A DNA stretch of 32,965 nt from a virus: positions 1 through 32,965 of the IMG/VR virus record IMGVR_UViG_3300047352_000282; one strand, given 5' to 3'. The translations under genes were made by a program, and so were the position numbers. Below the pieces are notes generated by a model. The model was not told the DNA's origin. It did not search any database and was given only the letters and a program-made list of their open reading frames with translations. Below are positions 6,323-32,965 of this stretch, piece after piece; position 1 is the first letter of the stretch, and each line of letters starts with the position of its first letter.

Positions 6323-7471
6323 TTATTTATTTGCTCTTATAATAGCACCCATTTGAGCAGCTCTTTCAGCTCTTGTTAGTGCTTTAAATTCTTGTGGCTT
6401 AGAAGATGTTGACGGCTCAGCCTTAACAATCTCTTCTAAATCCTCTCCTACTTTGTTGAGTGTAGCAGAAAACTCATTTTTTAACTCGTCTTTAGCATTC
6501 TTAACCTCAGCTAATTCAGCTTTAAGGCTTTCGTTCTCAGACTTAACAAGGTCTAAAGAAGCAGTAAAAGCCTCAGCATATTTTGCCATTGCTTTCTCAA
6601 TAAGGTCGTTAAGCATTTCTGAGTTAAACTCATTGTCATACATTTCCTCTTCCTCTTCTTTTTTCTCTTGGTCAGCAGCAGCTTCAATATTAACTACTAA
6701 TCCTCCAGCAGTTTCAATTAAAGTACCATCTGATAACTCGTGAATACCATCTGGAGCAGCAACCTCACCTTCTGGCATAACCACTACTAAAGCAGTTCCA
6801 TCAGCTAATTCGCCTTCCCATTTAACAATAGTTCCATCAACTAAAGTAGCTTCTGCGAAGTTATCCTCCGTAGTCTCTTCTACCTCAGCATCTGCGAACA
6901 CAGATTTTAAAGTGCTTATAACACTTTCTAAGTTTAATTTATTCATCTTTTTAAATTTATACGGCTCTAAGTCAAATACACCCTCAACGCTAAACCCTTT
7001 TAAAATACCTTCCTCTTTAACCTTTGCCCAAGCGTCGTCATTCTCTACTTTAGCAGCGATAAACCAAGTTCCGTCTGCTACATTCTCAAAACCAGAGGGA
7101 GCTGAAATGCCTAACTCTGCATCAGTTATAAAGGATTGATAAATATATACTCCATCAAGTATCTTAAAAGCGTTATGCTCTTCGTTAAATACGTTATGCT
7201 TATTCTCTTTGAATAGCTTTTGTACAAGTGCTTTGATTGTTTCTTTTTTGAAGATAGCGTAATATTCGCCTCTCTCATCTCTACGATAAATAGGTAAGTC
7301 TGGAATCATAGCTGCTCCCATTACAATACGCTTATCCTCGTTAATTACCTCAAATTTATGTGGAGCAAATGCTTGGTAGTTTAGTCCTATTGCTGGTCTG
7401 TCTACTAAAGCTATCGCTTGAAGTCCTTCGACCTCGTCAGTAAGTTTAAATTCGATAAAAGGTAAGTCCAT
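6323..7471 (-). CDS. Capsid maturation protease fused to scaffold (XkdF-like, 382 aa)
   Basis: Residues 1 to about 170 resemble XkdF/S78-like prohead proteases: ALVDRPAIGLNYQAF at the start, a candidate catalytic His in NVFNEEHN (about residue 98) and a candidate Ser in GFSVEGVFDLEP. A central strand module has repeated DGT turns (LVDGTIVKWEGELADGTALV, then LSDGTLIETAGG). The C-terminal third is a Glu/Lys-rich coiled coil (EEEEEMYDNEF, LVKSENESLKAELAEVKN), as expected for a scaffold delta-domain. An in-frame ATG at 6946 could start a separate scaffold product, as in phages with nested protease/scaffold genes. It precedes the capsid gene by 13 bases. Confidence 0.8.
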   Translation of the reverse strand: MDLPFIEFKLTDEVEGLQAIALVDRPAIGLNYQAFAPHKFEVINEDKRIVMGAAMIPDLPIYRRDERGEYYAIFKKETIKALVQKLFKENKHNVFNEEHNAFKILDGVYIYQSFITDAELGISAPSGFENVADGTWFIAAKVENDDAWAKVKEEGILKGFSVEGVFDLEPYKFKKMNKLNLESVISTLKSVFADAEVEETTEDNFAEATLVDGTIVKWEGELADGTALVVVMPEGEVAAPDGIHELSDGTLIETAGGLVVNIEAAADQEKKEEEEEMYDNEFNSEMLNDLIEKAMAKYAEAFTASLDLVKSENESLKAELAEVKNAKDELKNEFSATLNKVGEDLEEIVKAEPSTSSKPQEFKALTRAERAAQMGAIIRANK

Positions 7472-7485
7472 CTACTTATATATAC
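7468..7485 (-). promoter_or_regulatory. Conserved leader adjoining the protease start codon
   Basis: On the minus strand the bases GTATATATAAGTAG lead straight into ATGG of the protease gene. The same 18-base block with one change lies at 14480-14497 in front of the 419-aa tail gene. No Shine-Dalgarno sequence is present at either site, so this AT-rich block may be the ribosome-binding or translation-enhancing element. Both copies sit just downstream of a small-gene cassette. Confidence 0.5.
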
Positions 7486-13230: not shown

Positions 13231-14483
13231 TGTCGCTTATCGCTATTATCAACCTCCATTTGTAGCTCCATACTATACACTTGACCATTCTCACTCTTAG
13301 CGTGTTCAAAAGTATTACCAGTTACATTTACCGATACAAAATTAGCATCGTTTTTCCAGTAAACCTCTGGAGATGAAAACAAGTCCTCTAAGCCCTCAAC
13401 TTCAAAGTCCTTTAGTAATCTACTATTTAAAGTATAATTATCGCTTAGAGAGGTATGAAATGCCCTCTTACGTTGTGCGTAGGTATTATGAGTGATGCTA
13501 CTTGCTCCAATAGTACGAGTATTGTACTTTGCAAAGTTCTTATTTATGCTTGTAGTCTGATTAGACTTACCACTAAACGTAAAGCTATCGTATCCACCCT
13601 TTCTATTTAACCAATGTAGCTCGTAATCTGTATAGGTATTTTCGCAGTCATCTATTTCAAACATTATGGTTTTTGTAGCCCATACATCCTCAGTAAAGTT
13701 TAATATCCTTAAAGCATAGTATTTTACGTTTGTCATTACTGGTGTAGTACCCCAACTATGTGAAGCAATCTCAGAAGCACCCACATCAAGCGTATATAAC
13801 CCAGCAGTATTTGCAGCAGTCATTGTAGTTGACAATATATTTGTAAACGTACTATCTAATGTCTTTAAATATATCTTGTAAGTATCGCTTAGATTCTGTC
13901 GCATAATCCAAGACGCTTGATATTTCTGTGTTGACCTTACCTTTAAAAAGTTGTTAGACTTACCTAAATTAAACCATTCAGCATCTTGCTCAAATCCATT
14001 AAGAAACTCTTTGTCTGTTTCAGCAGAAGCATCTTCAATACTCCAGTTATAATAGTCTTTTGTACTACCAGATAAATCTGCCCACTCGATATACTTAGGT
14101 GACGAGTTCCAACTATCAAAAGTATTGCCACTTACTGCACTTCCTTGTAATGCTCCAGAGTAATACTCTTGAAAAGCTATTTTAAAGTCTTTTAAGGCAC
14201 TTTGAGATATGTCTGTAGTATCTCCAGTTAGAATAGAATAATCGCTGCTTACAAACGATTGTATGATATTTTGAATATCTGTCACAACTTGAGTAGCTGA
14301 GGGGATAGTATTTAACTGCAAGGTAGCAATCTTTGTATTATCTCCAGTTGGGTCTGTGAATAGACTTGCTATTACTTTAAATCCACTCTGAGCAGTACTT
14401 GTACTACTGACTAAATATTCGATAGGAGCAAAACTCGGCTCTGGTATATTGGTTGTCGGTTGGTCTTGAATTGTAAGTGCCAT
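13224..14483 (-). CDS. Tail structural protein (419 aa)
   Basis: A 419-residue, strand-rich protein with many Ser, Thr, Tyr and Asn, first gene of the main tail block after a cassette terminator. Recognisable segments are SFAPIEYLVSSTSTAQSGFK near the start, a cysteine-containing IMFEIDDCENTYTDYELHWL (about 270-290), and LNSRLLKDFEVEGLEDLF near the end. The LHWLNRKGGYDSFTF stretch is shared, from memory, with other Bacteroidota phage tail proteins. It overlaps the 999-aa gene by seven bases and is probably part of the tail tip. Its leader matches that of the protease gene. Confidence 0.7.
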   Translation of the reverse strand: MALTIQDQPTTNIPEPSFAPIEYLVSSTSTAQSGFKVIASLFTDPTGDNTKIATLQLNTIPSATQVVTDIQNIIQSFVSSDYSILTGDTTDISQSALKDFKIAFQEYYSGALQGSAVSGNTFDSWNSSPKYIEWADLSGSTKDYYNWSIEDASAETDKEFLNGFEQDAEWFNLGKSNNFLKVRSTQKYQASWIMRQNLSDTYKIYLKTLDSTFTNILSTTMTAANTAGLYTLDVGASEIASHSWGTTPVMTNVKYYALRILNFTEDVWATKTIMFEIDDCENTYTDYELHWLNRKGGYDSFTFSGKSNQTTSINKNFAKYNTRTIGASSITHNTYAQRKRAFHTSLSDNYTLNSRLLKDFEVEGLEDLFSSPEVYWKNDANFVSVNVTGNTFEHAKSENGQVYSMELQMEVDNSDKRQW

Positions 14484-14497
14484 CTATTTATATATAC
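14480..14497 (-). promoter_or_regulatory. Conserved leader adjoining the 419-aa tail gene start
   Basis: On the minus strand GTATATATAAATAG runs straight into ATGG, the same block as at 7468-7485 with one base changed. The likely role is translation initiation in the absence of a Shine-Dalgarno motif, or a boundary element shared by the two cassettes. Confidence 0.5.
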
Positions 14498-16087: not shown

Positions 16088-17222
16088 ATCCTTTCTTACT
16101 AAATTTGTGCATTATTAAATACCTCAAAGCATCTATTGCGTGATTATAATCGTCAATAGGTACGTTAAGGCTATCTCCGTTTTTATTTACTTTCCATTTA
16201 TATTGTTCAAGCTCTTTTATTAGGTTCTTACTTGACGAATGTACGTTAATTGCATAACCTTTTAAAAGATTAATACCAAACATAACGCTATCCTTACCTT
16301 TTTTTACTCCATCTATTGTCCATCTTAACCTTCTTAGCTCCTCTATACTCTTAGGCTCAGCAGAATCAGCTACTATTAAAGCTCCTCTACTTACGTTTAA
16401 AGCATCCATTCTACTGCTTATATCTTGATTAGTTAAGCCAGTTTCATATATTAACTCCTTAACGTATAGCTCTCCGTCTTGCATACGCACCTCAATCAGC
16501 GTTGTAGGGTCATTACTAAAACCAAAATCTATTCCGTACCCTATTATCTTTTTATCCTCAAAGCTATCATTCAATACATACCACTTCTTAAATATAAGCC
16601 CCTCTATTCGCCCAGTAATACCTCTGGCATATACTTTCCATAGGTCTAAATCTTTATGCTTTAGAGCTTCTATCTTCTCTCTTATCTTCTCGCTTAAGAA
16701 AGGGTTATGCCTATGGTCTGATATTATTAATTCTGTGCTGGGTATTGGTATTACTTTATCGTGTACCCAAAAGCTCGTATCTGGGTTATAATCTATGTAA
16801 ACTTGCTTACGAGTTCTAAGGCTTAATTGCTCATAAATGTTATAAGGTATTCCGTTTGCCTCATTAACAAATAAATAATCTCTCTTACCAGACTTTGCAT
16901 CTTGGTCATTATCGTAGGAATTAAACTCCATTATAGAGCCGTTAAGGAAACTAAACACCCTATCTGACCTATTGTAGAATGTTACTTGCTGCTTTATAGC
17001 CTCATCTCCATTATGTATGTCTATCGCATCCCTCAAAGCTCCTACCTTTAAATTAGGTATATCTTGCCCTACTATCGTTATAGTGCAAACCTCGTTTATA
17101 GCCTTACTAAATAATACTTGTAAAATAGCATAGGTCTTACCAGAGGATGTTCCACCTTGATTAACTACCACATCAGCAGCAGAGGTATAATTTTGGCGAT
17201 ATAGAGCAGAGGTACTAATCAA
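16065..17222 (-). CDS. terL: Terminase large subunit (385 aa)
   Basis: The ATP-driven packaging motor and nuclease. The Walker A region is NQGGTSSGKTY (about residues 21-31) and Walker B is DYLFVNEANG (about 114-123), in the PBSX/Terminase_3-6-like style. The nuclease half has IDFGFSNDPTT (first Asp), ALIVADSAEPKSI (second Asp) and DDYNHAIDALRYLI (third acidic pair), the RNase H-fold triad. The start is TTG at 17222, within GTTGATTAG, overlapping the small-subunit stop by eight bases; no ATG lies before Walker A. It overlaps the next gene by 23 bases. At 385 residues it is at the short end of the family. Confidence 0.93.
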   Translation of the reverse strand: MISTSALYRQNYTSAADVVVNQGGTSSGKTYAILQVLFSKAINEVCTITIVGQDIPNLKVGALRDAIDIHNGDEAIKQQVTFYNRSDRVFSFLNGSIMEFNSYDNDQDAKSGKRDYLFVNEANGIPYNIYEQLSLRTRKQVYIDYNPDTSFWVHDKVIPIPSTELIISDHRHNPFLSEKIREKIEALKHKDLDLWKVYARGITGRIEGLIFKKWYVLNDSFEDKKIIGYGIDFGFSNDPTTLIEVRMQDGELYVKELIYETGLTNQDISSRMDALNVSRGALIVADSAEPKSIEELRRLRWTIDGVKKGKDSVMFGINLLKGYAINVHSSSKNLIKELEQYKWKVNKNGDSLNVPIDDYNHAIDALRYLIMHKFSKKGYGQYTVL

Positions 17223-17595
17223 CTATGTCTTTCTCATTTGACGCTAATGGCACTCCAGTATCTATAATGTTTATGTCTAAGCTCTTATAGGTTGTTTCTT
17301 GTTGTATCTCAGTACGTTCTATATACCCTCGTTTCTTGCCTTTGGTCTTTAGGTAAAATATAGTTCCAGTAGTATTACCATCCTTAATCTGCTTATGCAG
17401 TTGGCTCTCGGCAAAGTCTAAGGCTATATTCTCTATATCCTCTACTGCCTCTTTATATATATCGTCTTGCTTTAGCCAAGTGTAATGCGTATTCCTACTT
17501 ATTCCTACCGACTTACAAGCAGAGGTAACTATGCCTAAAGACTTTTCTAAAGCCTCAAGCATTGCAGCCTTTTGTATGTCATTTTTTGTACTCAT
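17215..17595 (-). CDS. terS: Terminase small subunit (126 aa)
   Basis: The N-terminal helix-turn-helix (ITSACKSVGISRNTHYTWLK style, about residues 21-42) is the DNA-recognition part of small terminases. Then comes a helical oligomerisation segment (EDIENIALDFAESQLHKQI) and a strand turn GTIFYLKTKGKKRGYIER, a signature of this family. The start overlaps the SpeD stop (ATGA), so the two are translationally coupled. It overlaps TerL by eight bases. It selects the packaging site; that site is not identifiable here. Confidence 0.88.
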   Translation of the reverse strand: MSTKNDIQKAAMLEALEKSLGIVTSACKSVGISRNTHYTWLKQDDIYKEAVEDIENIALDFAESQLHKQIKDGNTTGTIFYLKTKGKKRGYIERTEIQQETTYKSLDINIIDTGVPLASNEKDIVD

Positions 17596-17873
17596 ATATC
17601 TCTATTTAATAAATTTTTAAATTTATAAAAAGGCTTATCTATACAACTGCTTAACTCTATATATGACTTATTCTCTTCTGGAAATGTATGTATAGCTAAA
17701 TGACTTTCAGATAATAAATACAAAGCAGTAAACCCAAAAGGAGTAAAATGATGGTCTATATATTTTAAGACATTAAACCCAGACTCATTTAGTAACTTGT
17801 CATAAACCTCTTTTAGTTTATTAGGGTCTGTTTCTTTTACCCAGTAACTATAATTATACATCTTCGCTTTCAT
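17592..17873 (-). CDS. speD: S-adenosylmethionine decarboxylase proenzyme (SpeD family, 93 aa)
   Basis: A pyruvoyl-dependent decarboxylase of the prokaryotic SpeD family, which makes decarboxylated AdoMet for polyamine synthesis. The key block is LLSESHLAIHTFPEENKSY. The self-cleavage pair Glu56-Ser57 is followed by His62 and Cys77, with the same 5- and 15-residue spacing as Ser63/His68/Cys83 of the Thermotoga maritima enzyme. HFTPFGFTALYL before it also fits. At 93 residues it is shorter than the usual 110-130 at both ends. It overlaps the methyltransferase by 20 bases and couples to TerS by ATGA; an inner ATG at 17861 is possible. Some SpeD relatives now decarboxylate ornithine or arginine, so the substrate is open. 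No spermidine synthase is present. Confidence 0.85.
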   Translation of the reverse strand: MKAKMYNYSYWVKETDPNKLKEVYDKLLNESGFNVLKYIDHHFTPFGFTALYLLSESHLAIHTFPEENKSYIELSSCIDKPFYKFKNLLNRDI

Positions 17874-19119
17874 ACTCTATGCTGCTAAAGTCTAATTCTT
17901 TGTAGTTGTCTTTTATTTTTTTAGTATCGCCTTTATAAAATACTAATATATTTTGATGCACTTTTACTACTTTTCTACTTTTCATATATTTATTTGCTCT
18001 TGCTGGAGCAGTACCTAATGAGTCTAATAAAATCATTTCATTATATAAAGACATTCCATTTTCTGTAAATATCTTTTTAATATGGTCTGGGAACTTATAA
18101 TATGTGCCATCTTTTGCCCTTATGTCACCAACTACTATAAAAGCAAATCTATTATCTTTTAAACACTTGATTGAGTCTGAAAACGCATTGTCTAATATTT
18201 GTAAAAAGTCATTATATTCTTTTTGGTTACTTGCATCTGTTGGCAAATCTGAATATACCTCAAGGTCAAAGTAAGGAGGACAACTAAATAATAAATCTTG
18301 GCTTTTTTCTTTTATGTGCTTTAAAACATTTTGCCCATCATCGCAAATATATTTACTTTTACTGCCTTTAAGTCTATTGTTGTTTAAGTCTGCTTGTTCT
18401 TTTCTAAGTTCTATACCAGTAAAAGTATTCCCTAAAGCATCACTAACATACCCAAAAACAGTATCTCCAGCAAAGCAATCAAAAGTATTACAATTATCTA
18501 AACCAAACCACTTATTAGATATTTCTGCTAATACTGGGTCTAATATGCTGACTGTTGCCATTTCTGGTCTATACATAGCAGACATATTATTCAAGTTACT
18601 TAACTTATCTTCTCGACTTTCGCCATTATCTCCTATTAAACCTTTCCAGTATTTTTTTCTTTTTTGCCAATAACCTTGTTTGGTATCTAATACGCTAAAG
18701 GGTGGTACTACAAATTTATCTTCAAGTTTATTATATTCCTCTTTTTCGCCATCATCATCAAAAGGGAATCCCTCTAAACCCCAATCCTCCAGCTCTTGAG
18801 TATCCCATTCGTTAGCTAAAATCTCCCAGTCGTGTTCTCCAAAGCCTACGTTATCTGCTATAATAAATCTTCTTGCCTCTTCGTCTGTTAAATCCTCAGC
18901 CCTTTTAACCCATTCATCTGGCACATCTGTATATCCTAATTCTTTTAATGCCTTTAGTCGCATATTACCTCCTAATACTATATTGTCTTGGTTTATAACC
19001 ATAGGACGCAAAGCCATCATTTTAGGAAACTCCTTAATAGACTTTTTTAACTTCTCAAATTTCTCGTCTTTTATGATACGAGGGTTATTAGGATTGCTTT
19101 TAATATCTTTTATATTCAT
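17854..19119 (-). CDS. ParB-like domain fused to SAM-dependent DNA methyltransferase (421 aa)
   Basis: Residues 1-90 form a ParB/Srx-like domain: LKKSIKEFP, then VINQDNIVLGGNMRLKALKE with the GGNMR motif at 50-54. After a linker, the methyltransferase has motif I at about 213-223 (FDCFAGDTVFG), an acidic GIEL strand end (235-238) and motif IV SCPPYFDLEVYS (279-290). Motif I precedes motif IV. The residue before PPY is Cys rather than Asp/Asn/Ser, as I recall for this phage family. Such ParB-methyltransferase fusions are frequent in phages and protect DNA from host restriction or mark it; target base unknown. Coupled by ATGA to the 61-aa gene. Confidence 0.85.
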   Translation of the reverse strand: MNIKDIKSNPNNPRIIKDEKFEKLKKSIKEFPKMMALRPMVINQDNIVLGGNMRLKALKELGYTDVPDEWVKRAEDLTDEEARRFIIADNVGFGEHDWEILANEWDTQELEDWGLEGFPFDDDGEKEEYNKLEDKFVVPPFSVLDTKQGYWQKRKKYWKGLIGDNGESREDKLSNLNNMSAMYRPEMATVSILDPVLAEISNKWFGLDNCNTFDCFAGDTVFGYVSDALGNTFTGIELRKEQADLNNNRLKGSKSKYICDDGQNVLKHIKEKSQDLLFSCPPYFDLEVYSDLPTDASNQKEYNDFLQILDNAFSDSIKCLKDNRFAFIVVGDIRAKDGTYYKFPDHIKKIFTENGMSLYNEMILLDSLGTAPARANKYMKSRKVVKVHQNILVFYKGDTKKIKDNYKELDFSSIEYESEDV

Positions 19120-19301
19120 TTTAAAAATTTATCATATAATTTAACAACGTGTTTGTATATGCACTTACCACAGCTTACATCTGGTCTATATCTAAAGTTC
19201 TCTTGACATAGCTCTATAAACTCAGCATAGAATTTAGGGTCAAGTCTGCCACCTTTCATATTGTATATAGCTCGTATTCTTGTTTCTAATTCCTCACTCA
19301 T
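19116..19301 (-). CDS. Small Cys-containing protein (61 aa)
   Basis: A 61-residue protein with a helical start (EELETRIRAIYNMKGGRLD), a segment FIELCQENFRY and a CGKCIYKHVVKLYDKF end in which CxxC could bind a metal together with other Cys/His. It couples by ATGA to both the sigma/glycosyltransferase gene and the methyltransferase gene. The combination of a CGKC motif and short helices recalls small phage zinc-binding proteins encoded near terminases. No function can be assigned. Confidence 0.65.
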   Translation of the reverse strand: MSEELETRIRAIYNMKGGRLDPKFYAEFIELCQENFRYRPDVSCGKCIYKHVVKLYDKFLK

Positions 19302-20650
19302 AATGATTGTAAGCGTTTTTCGTTCTCTTTTGTTATATCGTGTTTAATTGTTATGTCCTCTTTTAGCTTTAAGCCTAAATCTACTTGCATTGTGTGGTTG
19401 CCTTTAATCTTCTTAATTGCAGAAGCCCACTCATTATTATATACCTTTAGGCTATTTTTATTTGTCGATAGCAAAGTATAAGGCTCTACTGCCGATACCA
19501 TTACTGGCTTTGCAAAGTGTCCAGCTTCAATCATTTTTAGTTCAGATTTGCAGCTATTAAATACATTATCTTGCAGAGGTATTACACATATACCACAATG
19601 TTTGTAATCATCAGCATAGCTCTGTATATCGCTAATCTGTTTTTTTATAGCTTTCATTCGCTTAGGTAATCTTGGAGCTTTAATTAATAGCTTACTATCG
19701 TCAAAAGCGTTCCCTAATAGCTTTAAATCTTTTAAGTGAGTAGTACCACCAGAATAAAAGAAAGTATCAAAATTAAGGCTTAAATCATCGTAAGCATATT
19801 GTTTTTCTGTTGGGTCTAAAGCGTTCTTAATTACTACTATATTTTTATTGTATGGTCTTACCTTATCAGCCAGTATAGAAGTTGTAGTCCATATCTGGTC
19901 AGCTAACTTTAGATTCTTAACAATACATTTATCGAGGTTGCTTTTTTGGTAATAGTATCGCATTGGATGCCCTTTAGGTAATACCCAGTAATCATCTATA
20001 TCGCAAATAACCTTTATACCTTTTGCTCTTAGTTTTAGGAATGTTTCCTCTGGCTGAAGTAATCCAGATATATTTCTATTATATACAACGTGAGTAACTC
20101 CTTCTAAGTTATTAAAAAACTCATCATCCTTATTTAGCAATACAACCACCTCAATACCATAATCTCTCTGCATCTTAGCAAATGGCATAAGCAACCTATG
20201 ATAGCTTACTCCGTTAATACCTCTTATAATAACTGCTATCTTAATCTTATTCTCGTACATTATCTTAAATTGTTTTTTAGCTTTCGTATAGTCATCTCTA
20301 AGAGTTCTATAACCAATAGACGCACCCTTGTGTATTTGAGTTAAGGTTTCTCCATTACTAATGGCTCTTAGAATATTTGCGTAATAGTGATTCATCCTAT
20401 CAAGCACTTCCTCGACATCTGGATGCTCTGAGTTTTCGTTATCAAAGTAAGGGTCTTGCTTCTTGCATTTCTTTAGATATTGGTTACGCATAACCATTGC
20501 AAAATAGCCTTTAAGGTTTTCAATAGGAGGCTTAGACAAACATATTTCAAACGCAGTAGAGATTAGCTCCTCTGCTTCCAGCTTATTGCCAGTAAGTTTA
20601 AGAGCATAATCTCGTATGCTATCATCAAAATATATCTGTTCTAATTTCAA
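19298..20650 (-). CDS. Sigma-factor-like domain fused to GT4-type glycosyltransferase (450 aa)
   Basis: Residues 11-64 (IRDYALKLTGNKLEAEELI, then LKGYFAMVMRNQYLKKCKK) match region 2 of ECF-type sigma factors. Residues 93-129 (ISNGETLTQIHKGASIGYRT) form a helix-turn-helix-like stretch in the region 4 position. From about 135 a GT-B glycosyltransferase follows: IKIAVIIRGINGVSYHRLLM, ICDIDDYWVLPKGHPMRYY and, near the end, KSELKMIEAGHFAKPVMV, which resembles the GT4 acceptor/donor EX7E area. I chose TTG at 20650 because it overlaps the upstream stop (TTGA); a TTG at 20704 would add 18 residues of shadow sequence. An ATG at residue 131 could start the enzyme alone. The function of the fusion is unknown. 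Confidence 0.75.
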   Translation of the reverse strand: MKLEQIYFDDSIRDYALKLTGNKLEAEELISTAFEICLSKPPIENLKGYFAMVMRNQYLKKCKKQDPYFDNENSEHPDVEEVLDRMNHYYANILRAISNGETLTQIHKGASIGYRTLRDDYTKAKKQFKIMYENKIKIAVIIRGINGVSYHRLLMPFAKMQRDYGIEVVVLLNKDDEFFNNLEGVTHVVYNRNISGLLQPEETFLKLRAKGIKVICDIDDYWVLPKGHPMRYYYQKSNLDKCIVKNLKLADQIWTTTSILADKVRPYNKNIVVIKNALDPTEKQYAYDDLSLNFDTFFYSGGTTHLKDLKLLGNAFDDSKLLIKAPRLPKRMKAIKKQISDIQSYADDYKHCGICVIPLQDNVFNSCKSELKMIEAGHFAKPVMVSAVEPYTLLSTNKNSLKVYNNEWASAIKKIKGNHTMQVDLGLKLKEDITIKHDITKENEKRLQSL

Positions 20651-20901
20651 AAGGGTAGGCTGTCCTCTGAGGTAGCCATTTCCTTCTTTGGTTCTGGCTT
20701 CCAAGTATCAAGCTCAACGTATGGCTTTCCACTCTTTCCAATATTAATTTTAAGATTGACCCATCCTTTGTCTTGGTATTTCTGAATAAAGGCAATAGCG
20801 TCATCAGCTTTTAAGCTAAGACCACCTATTACCCACTCTGGTGAATTAGGATTCATTTTAAACATAAATCCGTCTGCGAAAGTTTTTTCTTGTTTGTTCA
20901 T
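20647..20901 (-). CDS. Small ssDNA-binding-like protein with SSB-type C-terminal tail (84 aa)
   Basis: An 84-residue protein (MNKQEKTFADGFMFKMNPNS) with a strand-rich core (WVIGGLSLKADDAIAFIQKY, WVNLKINIGKSGKPYVELD) and a charged linker ending in DSLPF. That ending resembles the acidic DDIPF tip with which bacterial SSB recruits partner proteins. Similar short proteins occur in Bacteroidota phage replication regions. It is the only SSB-like candidate in the genome, so it may coat ssDNA during replication. The ssDNA-binding call is inference from the tail and the context. Confidence 0.55.
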   Translation of the reverse strand: MNKQEKTFADGFMFKMNPNSPEWVIGGLSLKADDAIAFIQKYQDKGWVNLKINIGKSGKPYVELDTWKPEPKKEMATSEDSLPF

Positions 20902-20902
20902 A

Positions 20903-21205
20903 TTATTTATTTTCGTTTATTATCATTGACAAAAGTACAGCATAATTTGCTAAATCCAAAACGCTATCTTCTATACTCTCGTTATTAGGCTCTTGTTCCG
21001 AGTTAATCAATACTCCCAATCTTGCAACTTTAGTAGATATTAGGTTTAAGCAGTTAGTTCTTGCGTCTCCTCCAGCAATAGCACCAGCTAATTTGAAGTT
21101 AGATAACCTATCCTCATTAGCGTAGTCATCTCCCTTGCTAAATAATGTCTTTCTCATCTCTCCAGTCATATAACCGAAGTGAGCCATTTGTTCTTTTTTA
21201 GTCAT
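20903..21205 (-). CDS. DUF1599 / MazG-like nucleotide-modification-associated protein (100 aa)
   Basis: The segments TLFSKGDDYANEDRLSNFKL (about residues 20-40) and EDSVLDLANYAVLLSM near the end are the two conserved helices of the DUF1599 (Nmad1) group, related to MazG-type all-helical pyrophosphohydrolases. The acidic residues in KGDDYA and EDSVLDLANY would hold a metal. It may hydrolyse a nucleotide or take part in base modification. It lies one base before the SSB-like gene. No further base-modification gene was recognised, apart from the methyltransferase. Confidence 0.7.
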   Translation of the reverse strand: MTKKEQMAHFGYMTGEMRKTLFSKGDDYANEDRLSNFKLAGAIAGGDARTNCLNLISTKVARLGVLINSEQEPNNESIEDSVLDLANYAVLLSMIINENK

Positions 21206-31761: not shown

Positions 31762-32965
31762 TTATAATGTTGTTAATGTTTGTAATTCGCTATCACTCAA
31801 CGCTTCATTAAAGACTATTAGTTGTTTGCATTTTCCGTAGAAATCAGCACCACCACCACCATCATCAAAAGATAATTCAGATAAGGTAGATGTCGTAAAC
31901 GTAGTTCCGCTTGAATCGGTTAATCTTTCTTGTCCATCAACCCATAAAGCAAAATCATTTTCTTTGTATTTTAACGCAATTTTGTGATTAATTGTTGAGT
32001 CTATAGAAAGATTAGCATTAAATTGATTTCCACTTGGATTTCTAACATTTACACTTATAAATGTTGGCGAATTGCTATATAATGAAACTCTATTTGCACT
32101 GCTTCCGCTATTTAATGATATAAATTTATATTGATTGTCATCTGAAAAAACCATCTCCGCAAACAACACACCCTCTGTACTATTAAAGGTCGCTGAAGTA
32201 CCCGCATTGTTGCAGACATCGGCGGTTCGAGTGGTTGATGAGCCACTATTTGAAGGGATGTAGGATGTTGGGTATGAGCCTTGTTCAACTTGGGCTCCGT
32301 AAGCATATATACCGCTTGTTCCGTCTCCTAAGTACGCTGCCGCCCTACTTGAAGTTGCTGTTAACTTAGGGCAGTATGTGCTATTGAAATTGCCCGTAGT
32401 GGTTTTAGTGGCAGTAAGTGAACATCTATACCACCCATTCGATATTAAAGTAATAGAAGCATCTAAATATGTTCCCGAACCTAAAACTCCATTCTCTAAA
32501 TCAAAATTGCAATATACAGACCCTTCATCAAATGATGCACCCCCGAAAAGAAGCTGCACTATATCTCTTTCTCCTTTTTTAAAGAAACCCGAAAGAGTGT
32601 ATGTATTCCCCGCAGTCCCTGCGATTGCCCTATATATTTGATGATTAATATTAGTACTACCTTCTGTAAATTTAGATGCAGTCAAATCTCCACTTGGGCT
32701 TGTAAATCCATCTGTAACAGTTATACTGCTCTTACTCCAATAGCTTTGACTAAAATCCTCGCTATATGTAATTAAATTGGTTGATTGTCCTTCAAGTAAT
32801 AAACTCGCACAACTTCCATCGCTATAATCCAAGCGAGGTACATCGTTTTCGATTACTTCTTTGACTGATACGTTGTCGATTGAGCCTATAAAATTACTAT
32901 AATTCCTAAAAGTTAGGTTTGAAGAAGTTGCAGTTTTTATAAATGTTTTTGTGCCAGATGATGTA
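31762..32965 (-). CDS. Tail fibre / spike protein, C-terminal part (5' end at the other window edge)
   Basis: Open to the right edge; an inner ATG at 32832 is not the real start, because the frame continues upstream through the terminal repeat and, by circular joining, to ATG 544. Residues near the edge read VPRLDYSDGSCASLLLEGQ, then YSEDFSQSYWSKSSITVTDG, an AYGAQVEQGSYPTSYIPSNS end of a carbohydrate-binding-like domain and a LamG-like domain ending FNEALSDSELQTLTTL. The 22-base stretch coding for the YPTSYIP region is identical at 30165-30186 in the other fibre. Confidence 0.85.
   Translation of the reverse strand, partial: TSSGTKTFIKTATSSNLTFRNYSNFIGSIDNVSVKEVIENDVPRLDYSDGSCASLLLEGQSTNLITYSEDFSQSYWSKSSITVTDGFTSPSGDLTASKFTEGSTNINHQIYRAIAGTAGNTYTLSGFFKKGERDIVQLLFGGASFDEGSVYCNFDLENGVLGSGTYLDASITLISNGWYRCSLTATKTTTGNFNSTYCPKLTATSSRAAAYLGDGTSGIYAYGAQVEQGSYPTSYIPSNSGSSTTRTADVCNNAGTSATFNSTEGVLFAEMVFSDDNQYKFISLNSGSSANRVSLYSNSPTFISVNVRNPSGNQFNANLSIDSTINHKIALKYKENDFALWVDGQERLTDSSGTTFTTSTLSELSFDDGGGGADFYGKCKQLIVFNEALSDSELQTLTTL
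32814..32965. repeat. Terminal direct repeat, right copy
   Basis: Second copy of bases 1-152, differing only at 32839. It lies inside the fibre gene in the same reading frame as the left copy. Confidence 0.85.

Follow-up and report, generated by a model that had tools for sequence, protein, structure and literature searches.

Extracytoplasmic function (ECF) sigma factors that carry an additional domain behind the sigma part have been described, among them those of ECF41 (SnoaL-like extension), those of ECF42 (TPR extension) and CorE, and the ECF248 group has glycosyltransferases in its neighbourhood (PMC8999054). In Listeria monocytogenes, GmaR joins a glycosyltransferase (GT) to an antirepressor (PMC9638930). 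The gene considered here is encoded on the minus strand of the IMG/VR virus record IMGVR_UViG_3300047352_000282, which was analysed over its whole length of 32,965 nucleotides (hereafter, the window); its product combines a predicted sigma-type N half with a predicted GT-B enzyme in a single reading frame. Like ECF41, ECF42 and CorE, it consists of a minimal sigma domain followed by another domain in one chain, but its extension is an entire GT-B enzyme, and none such is named in the review (PMC8999054). It resembles GmaR in uniting a GT and a transcription regulator in one protein, and departs from it in that the partner is sigma-like instead of an antirepressor with TPR, with a reversed domain order and different folds. 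The sigma2-sigma4 layout is that of ECF sigma factors of the Bacteroidetes type (TIGR02985 / TIGR02937) and of the phage sigma factors of phrog_1740; unlike these, the fusion carries a GT of 314 residues, has Ser in place of a Gln and scores below the family cut-offs, its sigma role being predicted. The GT half is by sequence a member of phrog_7162, as are phi92 gp164 and its Justusliebigvirus relatives, whose matches are confined to the GT half and in which no sigma domain was matched. No described fusion of a sigma-type protein with a GT was found in literature text searches, which largely left out subscription papers.

The frame runs from a TTG at 20650-20648 to a stop codon ending at 19298, while the plus strand of this interval contains many stops; the open frame reported by the initial annotation, which had not named its strand, thus exists. 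The position of the TTG is retained in nearly all relatives, including one that is only 38% identical, and is occupied by ATG in L138 (L numbers designate the sequences compared). Independent scans with the N half and the C half recovered the same contigs, with both matches contiguous and in frame, and all relatives with 58% identity or more that span the junction have the in-frame join. Wider searches with a GT alignment brought the fused sequences to about 60 distinct ones (fragments included), which range from 97-99% down to 37-38% identity and fall into four subgroups (the window clade, L156, L157/L158 and L092/L116). An assembly error or frameshift was considered and rejected, as the TAATG overlap at the junction of the window copy is not found in all relatives and the fusion is. 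That the sigma-GT architecture resides in one protein is held with very high confidence.

On profile and model grounds, residues 3-133 are a minimal ECF-type sigma domain, composed of sigma2 and sigma4 without sigma3. The window copy by itself gives a weak signal (Pfam Sigma70_r2, E 0.021 for the whole protein and 0.0023 for the isolated domain, both below the curated cut-off), and Sigma70_r2 matches 15 of 18 fused members, at best with E 0.00065 and again below the cut-off. The identity is settled by the deep fused relatives, which match ECF profiles: L092 matches TIGR02985 (E 1e-7, over 13-160 of 162 positions) and TIGR02937 (E 1.7e-6), L116 matches TIGR02985 (E 4.8e-7) and L157 matches TIGR02937 (E 8e-6, over 14-161 of 165), region 4 being covered in all three. 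When the fused N domain was compared by hhalign with stand-alone sigma-like proteins, they aligned over the whole length (97%, E 7e-11), whereas five column-shuffled alignments used as controls all remained under 1%, as did the terminase small subunit. A derivation of the N half from this terminase subunit was rejected, given that matches to phrog_1482 are weak (best 0.014), that TerS is a separate gene in the window and that hhalign stays below 1%. Searches of bacterial genomes and of named phages with the N domain returned no match.

The C half matches the glycosyltransferase profile phrog_7162 with E 1e-44 over positions 8-303 of 309, and also resembles phage proteins annotated as 'glycosyl transferases group 1'. 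In a first structure model the GT half was of low quality; the later AlphaFold model of the whole protein, built from a deeper alignment, has a pLDDT of 88.7 and shows a GT-B fold (two Rossmann-like halves) in the C half, whose matches in the PDB are enzymes of the GT4 type (GlgM, MshA, PglA and Gtf3, with E values down to 9e-11). In this model the sigma4 helices are followed by a linker of about 3 residues and then by the first GT strand. With few exceptions, fused and stand-alone enzymes alike retain the motifs VxYHR, DxDDxW and NxxKSxLKxxEA; the exact EX7E form is absent, and Glu375, within the last of these motifs, does not vary among 29 sequences of the two kinds. As these motifs are preserved, the GT half is likely to be an active enzyme. 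The initial annotation had read a sigma-like region 2 and a helix-turn-helix (HTH) stretch fused to a GT4-like enzyme, and this is backed by the profiles, by the structure (sigma2 and sigma4 helices in one half, GT-B fold in the other) and by homologues that carry the fusion as well; sigma similarity is indeed found by profile searches, and the N half corresponds to no known GT accessory domain.

Strong purifying selection acts on both halves and is strongest on region 4. Across 38 fused coding sequences, the N half had a median ratio of nonsynonymous to synonymous rates (dN/dS) of 0.074 and the GT one of 0.040, with 0.106 for region 2 and 0.030 for region 4.

As judged from the loci compared, the fusion is shown to have arisen from neighbouring genes. 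The GT stands alone in more distant relatives (about 30% identity), and at 45 of 57 distinct informative loci a sigma-like gene lies on the same strand, no more than 4 kb upstream of it; since these loci are mutually related, the count expresses consistency and not 45 separate events. The sigma-like and GT genes overlap in L160 and in L163, in the latter by ATGA, and L163 stands beside the fused clade in the GT tree (support 80/88), on a long branch. GT trees unite the fused phage proteins in a single clade (support 86/90 and 93/93). A second sigma-GT fusion was found in a Bacteroidetes metagenome-assembled genome (L272), the N part of which matches TIGR02985 with E 1.5e-8. Because this N part is closer to separate sigma-like proteins than to the fused ones (hhalign, 99.7% vs 64.9%), and because a tree forcing all fused proteins together was rejected (approximately unbiased test, p 0.0003), the pair must have been joined at least twice. 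As a separate observation, an LpxA/NeuD-like acyltransferase gene and a possible GT-A-type gene come after the GT in split-gene phages (L105:6159-7266), which suggests a small glycan-modification cassette.

The window carries a direct repeat of 152 nt (99%) at its ends (1-152 and 32814-32965), and therefore probably represents a whole genome (about 32.8 kb), either circularly assembled or terminally redundant. It belongs to an uncultured phage of Bacteroidota-type bacteria: relatives of its terminase include phages of Bacteroides and Flavobacterium (38-39% identity), and three TATATTTG boxes upstream of genes in the window are compatible with Bacteroidota promoters. The fusion gene sits between replication genes (initiator-like, helicase-like) and a block encoding a ParB-methylase, an AdoMet-decarboxylase-like protein and terminase (Table 1). 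The acidic tail of the 84-aa protein encoded just upstream resembles the C-terminal tip of single-stranded-DNA-binding (SSB) proteins, and a similar acidic ...LPF tail ends a 93-aa protein that a split-gene phage encodes in its early region (L105:809-1090, minus strand); these two proteins are possibly unannotated phage SSB. DNA hypermodification was considered as the task of the GT and discarded: its sole hint upstream is the weak DUF1599 match ('nucleotide modification associated domain 1'), and the window proteins that were scanned include neither a hydroxymethylase nor a thymidylate-synthase-like protein.

Table 1. Positions in the window of the fusion gene, its domains, neighbouring genes and candidate late elements.
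Feature	Position	Strand	Basis or remark
Sigma-GT fusion gene	19298..20650	minus	Open frame, 450 aa + stop, TTG start; about 60 distinct in-frame relatives
TTG start codon	20648..20650	minus	Overlaps stop of upstream gene (TTGA); position kept in relatives
Sigma2-like domain, residues 10-66	20453..20623	minus	Sigma70_r2 match 12-66; helices 10-20, 23-38, 46-61
Sigma4-like HTH domain, residues 79-133	20252..20416	minus	Four helices 79-85, 88-98, 103-110, 114-133
ATG of residue 131, put forward as an internal start; not supported	20258..20260	minus	No synonymous constraint; absent in deep relatives
GT-B, GT4-like glycosyltransferase domain (predicted), residues 137-450	19301..20242	minus	phrog_7162, PDB fold matches, motifs
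Upstream 84-aa gene ending ...SEDSLPF	20647..20901	minus	Coupled to fusion gene; overlap kept in most relatives
100-aa protein, two genes upstream of fusion	20903-21205	minus	Weak DUF1599 match, E 6e-4, below cut-off
ParB-like nuclease domain and DNA methyltransferase in one 421-aa protein	17854-19119	minus	Profile matches
S-adenosylmethionine-decarboxylase-like gene, short (93 aa), adjoining terminase genes	17592-17873	minus	Pfam AdoMet_dc, 8e-15
TerS (terminase small subunit), separate gene	17215-17595		
Candidate late element GTATATATAAATAGATG	14481..14497	minus	Start of 13224-14483 gene, after terminator; putative target
Candidate late element GTATATATAAGTAGATG	7469..7485	minus	Start of 6323-7471 gene; putative target

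The reading favoured here, with a probability of roughly 0.4 for the mechanism, is that of a single bifunctional phage protein, a late-phase sigma-type regulator carrying an active GT. The sigma half, encoded where replication genes give way to packaging genes, would engage the host RNA polymerase and help to start late transcription; the GT half would transfer a sugar, most likely to an acceptor on the phage or in the host envelope; and the fusion would tie the amount and timing of the enzyme, and perhaps its place, to the late transcription complex. As the fusion is old, conserved in many phages and made at least twice, the two functions probably work together. A candidate target for the sigma half is GTATATATAARTAG, which is found immediately before the ATG of two late genes, 3' of terminator-like hairpins and without a TAnnTTTG box, and which is conserved in relatives. 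It could be a late promoter of the leaderless type, and is, with its two sites, a possible lead as the target of the sigma half. The initial annotation had put forward late-region repeats lacking a normal -7 box; this element is the sole repeat found to fit, and it occurs at just two late-gene starts. In L128, which is part of the L092 phage record, a different element, TTGGTACATTCTT, is repeated directly upstream of two open reading frames.

Several points weigh against this reading. All sigma-family scores remain under the curated cut-offs, in the window, in the deep relatives and in L272 (for L092, 32.3 bits vs 126.4 for TIGR02985 and 27.8 vs 42.9 for TIGR02937; for the window, 18.1 vs 24 for Pfam Sigma70_r2). 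The DxxQE-type motif in region 2.2 of ECF sigma factors is needed for core binding; its Gln is kept in most of the separate sigma-like proteins and in L272, whereas the fused protein of the window has Ser31 at this position, within an A(E/D)(E/D)L(I/V)S motif present in 16 of 16 aligned fused phage members. The candidate promoter element was found at two sites only, and nothing decisive emerged from the 11-mers shared among the seven genome sequences scanned. Sigma-like and GT genes both lie near terminase, so that genome layout may account for part of their proximity. Finally, the sigma and GT activities and the acceptor are predictions from sequence and model.

A serious rival, although an unlikely one, is that the sigma-like half acts as a mimic or tether which, by binding DNA, RNA polymerase or an anti-sigma factor, positions or regulates the GT. 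It owes its weight to the loss of the region 2.2 Gln, replaced by Ser in all the aligned fused phage members, and to the weaker constraint on region 2 than on region 4. The best Foldseek matches in the PDB of the first model (poor in its GT half) were PhyR, in which a sigma-like domain serves partner switching and, as in the fusion, precedes a Rossmann-like domain, this second domain being a receiver in PhyR and a GT-B enzyme here. Purifying selection nevertheless persists on region 2, the matches of deep fused relatives to ECF profiles extend over the whole profile, and no anti-sigma partner gene was identified. The roles could also be inverted, with the GT half as a sensor in which a nucleotide sugar or a glycan acceptor toggles the sigma half, in the manner of ECF C-terminal extensions; a junction placed immediately after the recognition helix of region 4 would suit such a switch, but the GT keeps the motifs of the stand-alone enzymes under the low dN/dS given above, which catalysis explains better than sensing alone, and this alternative appears improbable. 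About as improbable is a bystander fusion, in which adjacent genes lost a stop codon and the halves work independently without mutual benefit. The adjacency of the two genes in many phages and the ATGA overlap of L163 are what it would expect, but no re-split was seen in a clade whose divergence reaches 37-38% identity, and the two domains were fused independently a second time. A bolder proposal, which is regarded as a long shot, is that the sigma half docks the GT on the host transcription machinery, which the GT would glycosylate during infection.

The two remaining explanations concern the gene itself. The idea raised by the initial annotation, that the frame yields two proteins by way of the ATG of residue 131, could draw on the conservation of this ATG in the near clade and on the different Met that L116, L092 and L157 carry near the start of the GT. 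However, M131 is absent from L092, L116, L156 and L157, and synonymous variation around it (1.08, against a mean of 0.73) indicates no constraint, whereas codons 1-5 at the TTG start have values among the lowest in the gene; an internal start is for these reasons very improbable. Chance similarity or an assembly error, to which the sub-threshold Pfam score of the window copy taken by itself might point, is refuted by the conservation of the fusion and given a negligible probability: the join is seen in many separate contigs, deep relatives match ECF profiles from end to end, and the shuffled hhalign controls failed to reproduce the similarity.

The interest of this gene lies in the conserved and repeated character of the fusion, the sigma and GT activities being predicted. 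A fusion that is old, conserved and repeated, and that joins two families otherwise found as neighbours, is good evidence of a link between transcription control and sugar transfer in phages of Bacteroidota, and it hints at what the many unannotated sigma-like genes located upstream of this GT may do. Phage T4 ADP-ribosylates RNA polymerase, and we know of no phage in which the transcription complex is modified by a sugar; should the GT glycosylate the transcription machinery of its host, this would be a sugar-based analogue of the T4 modification.
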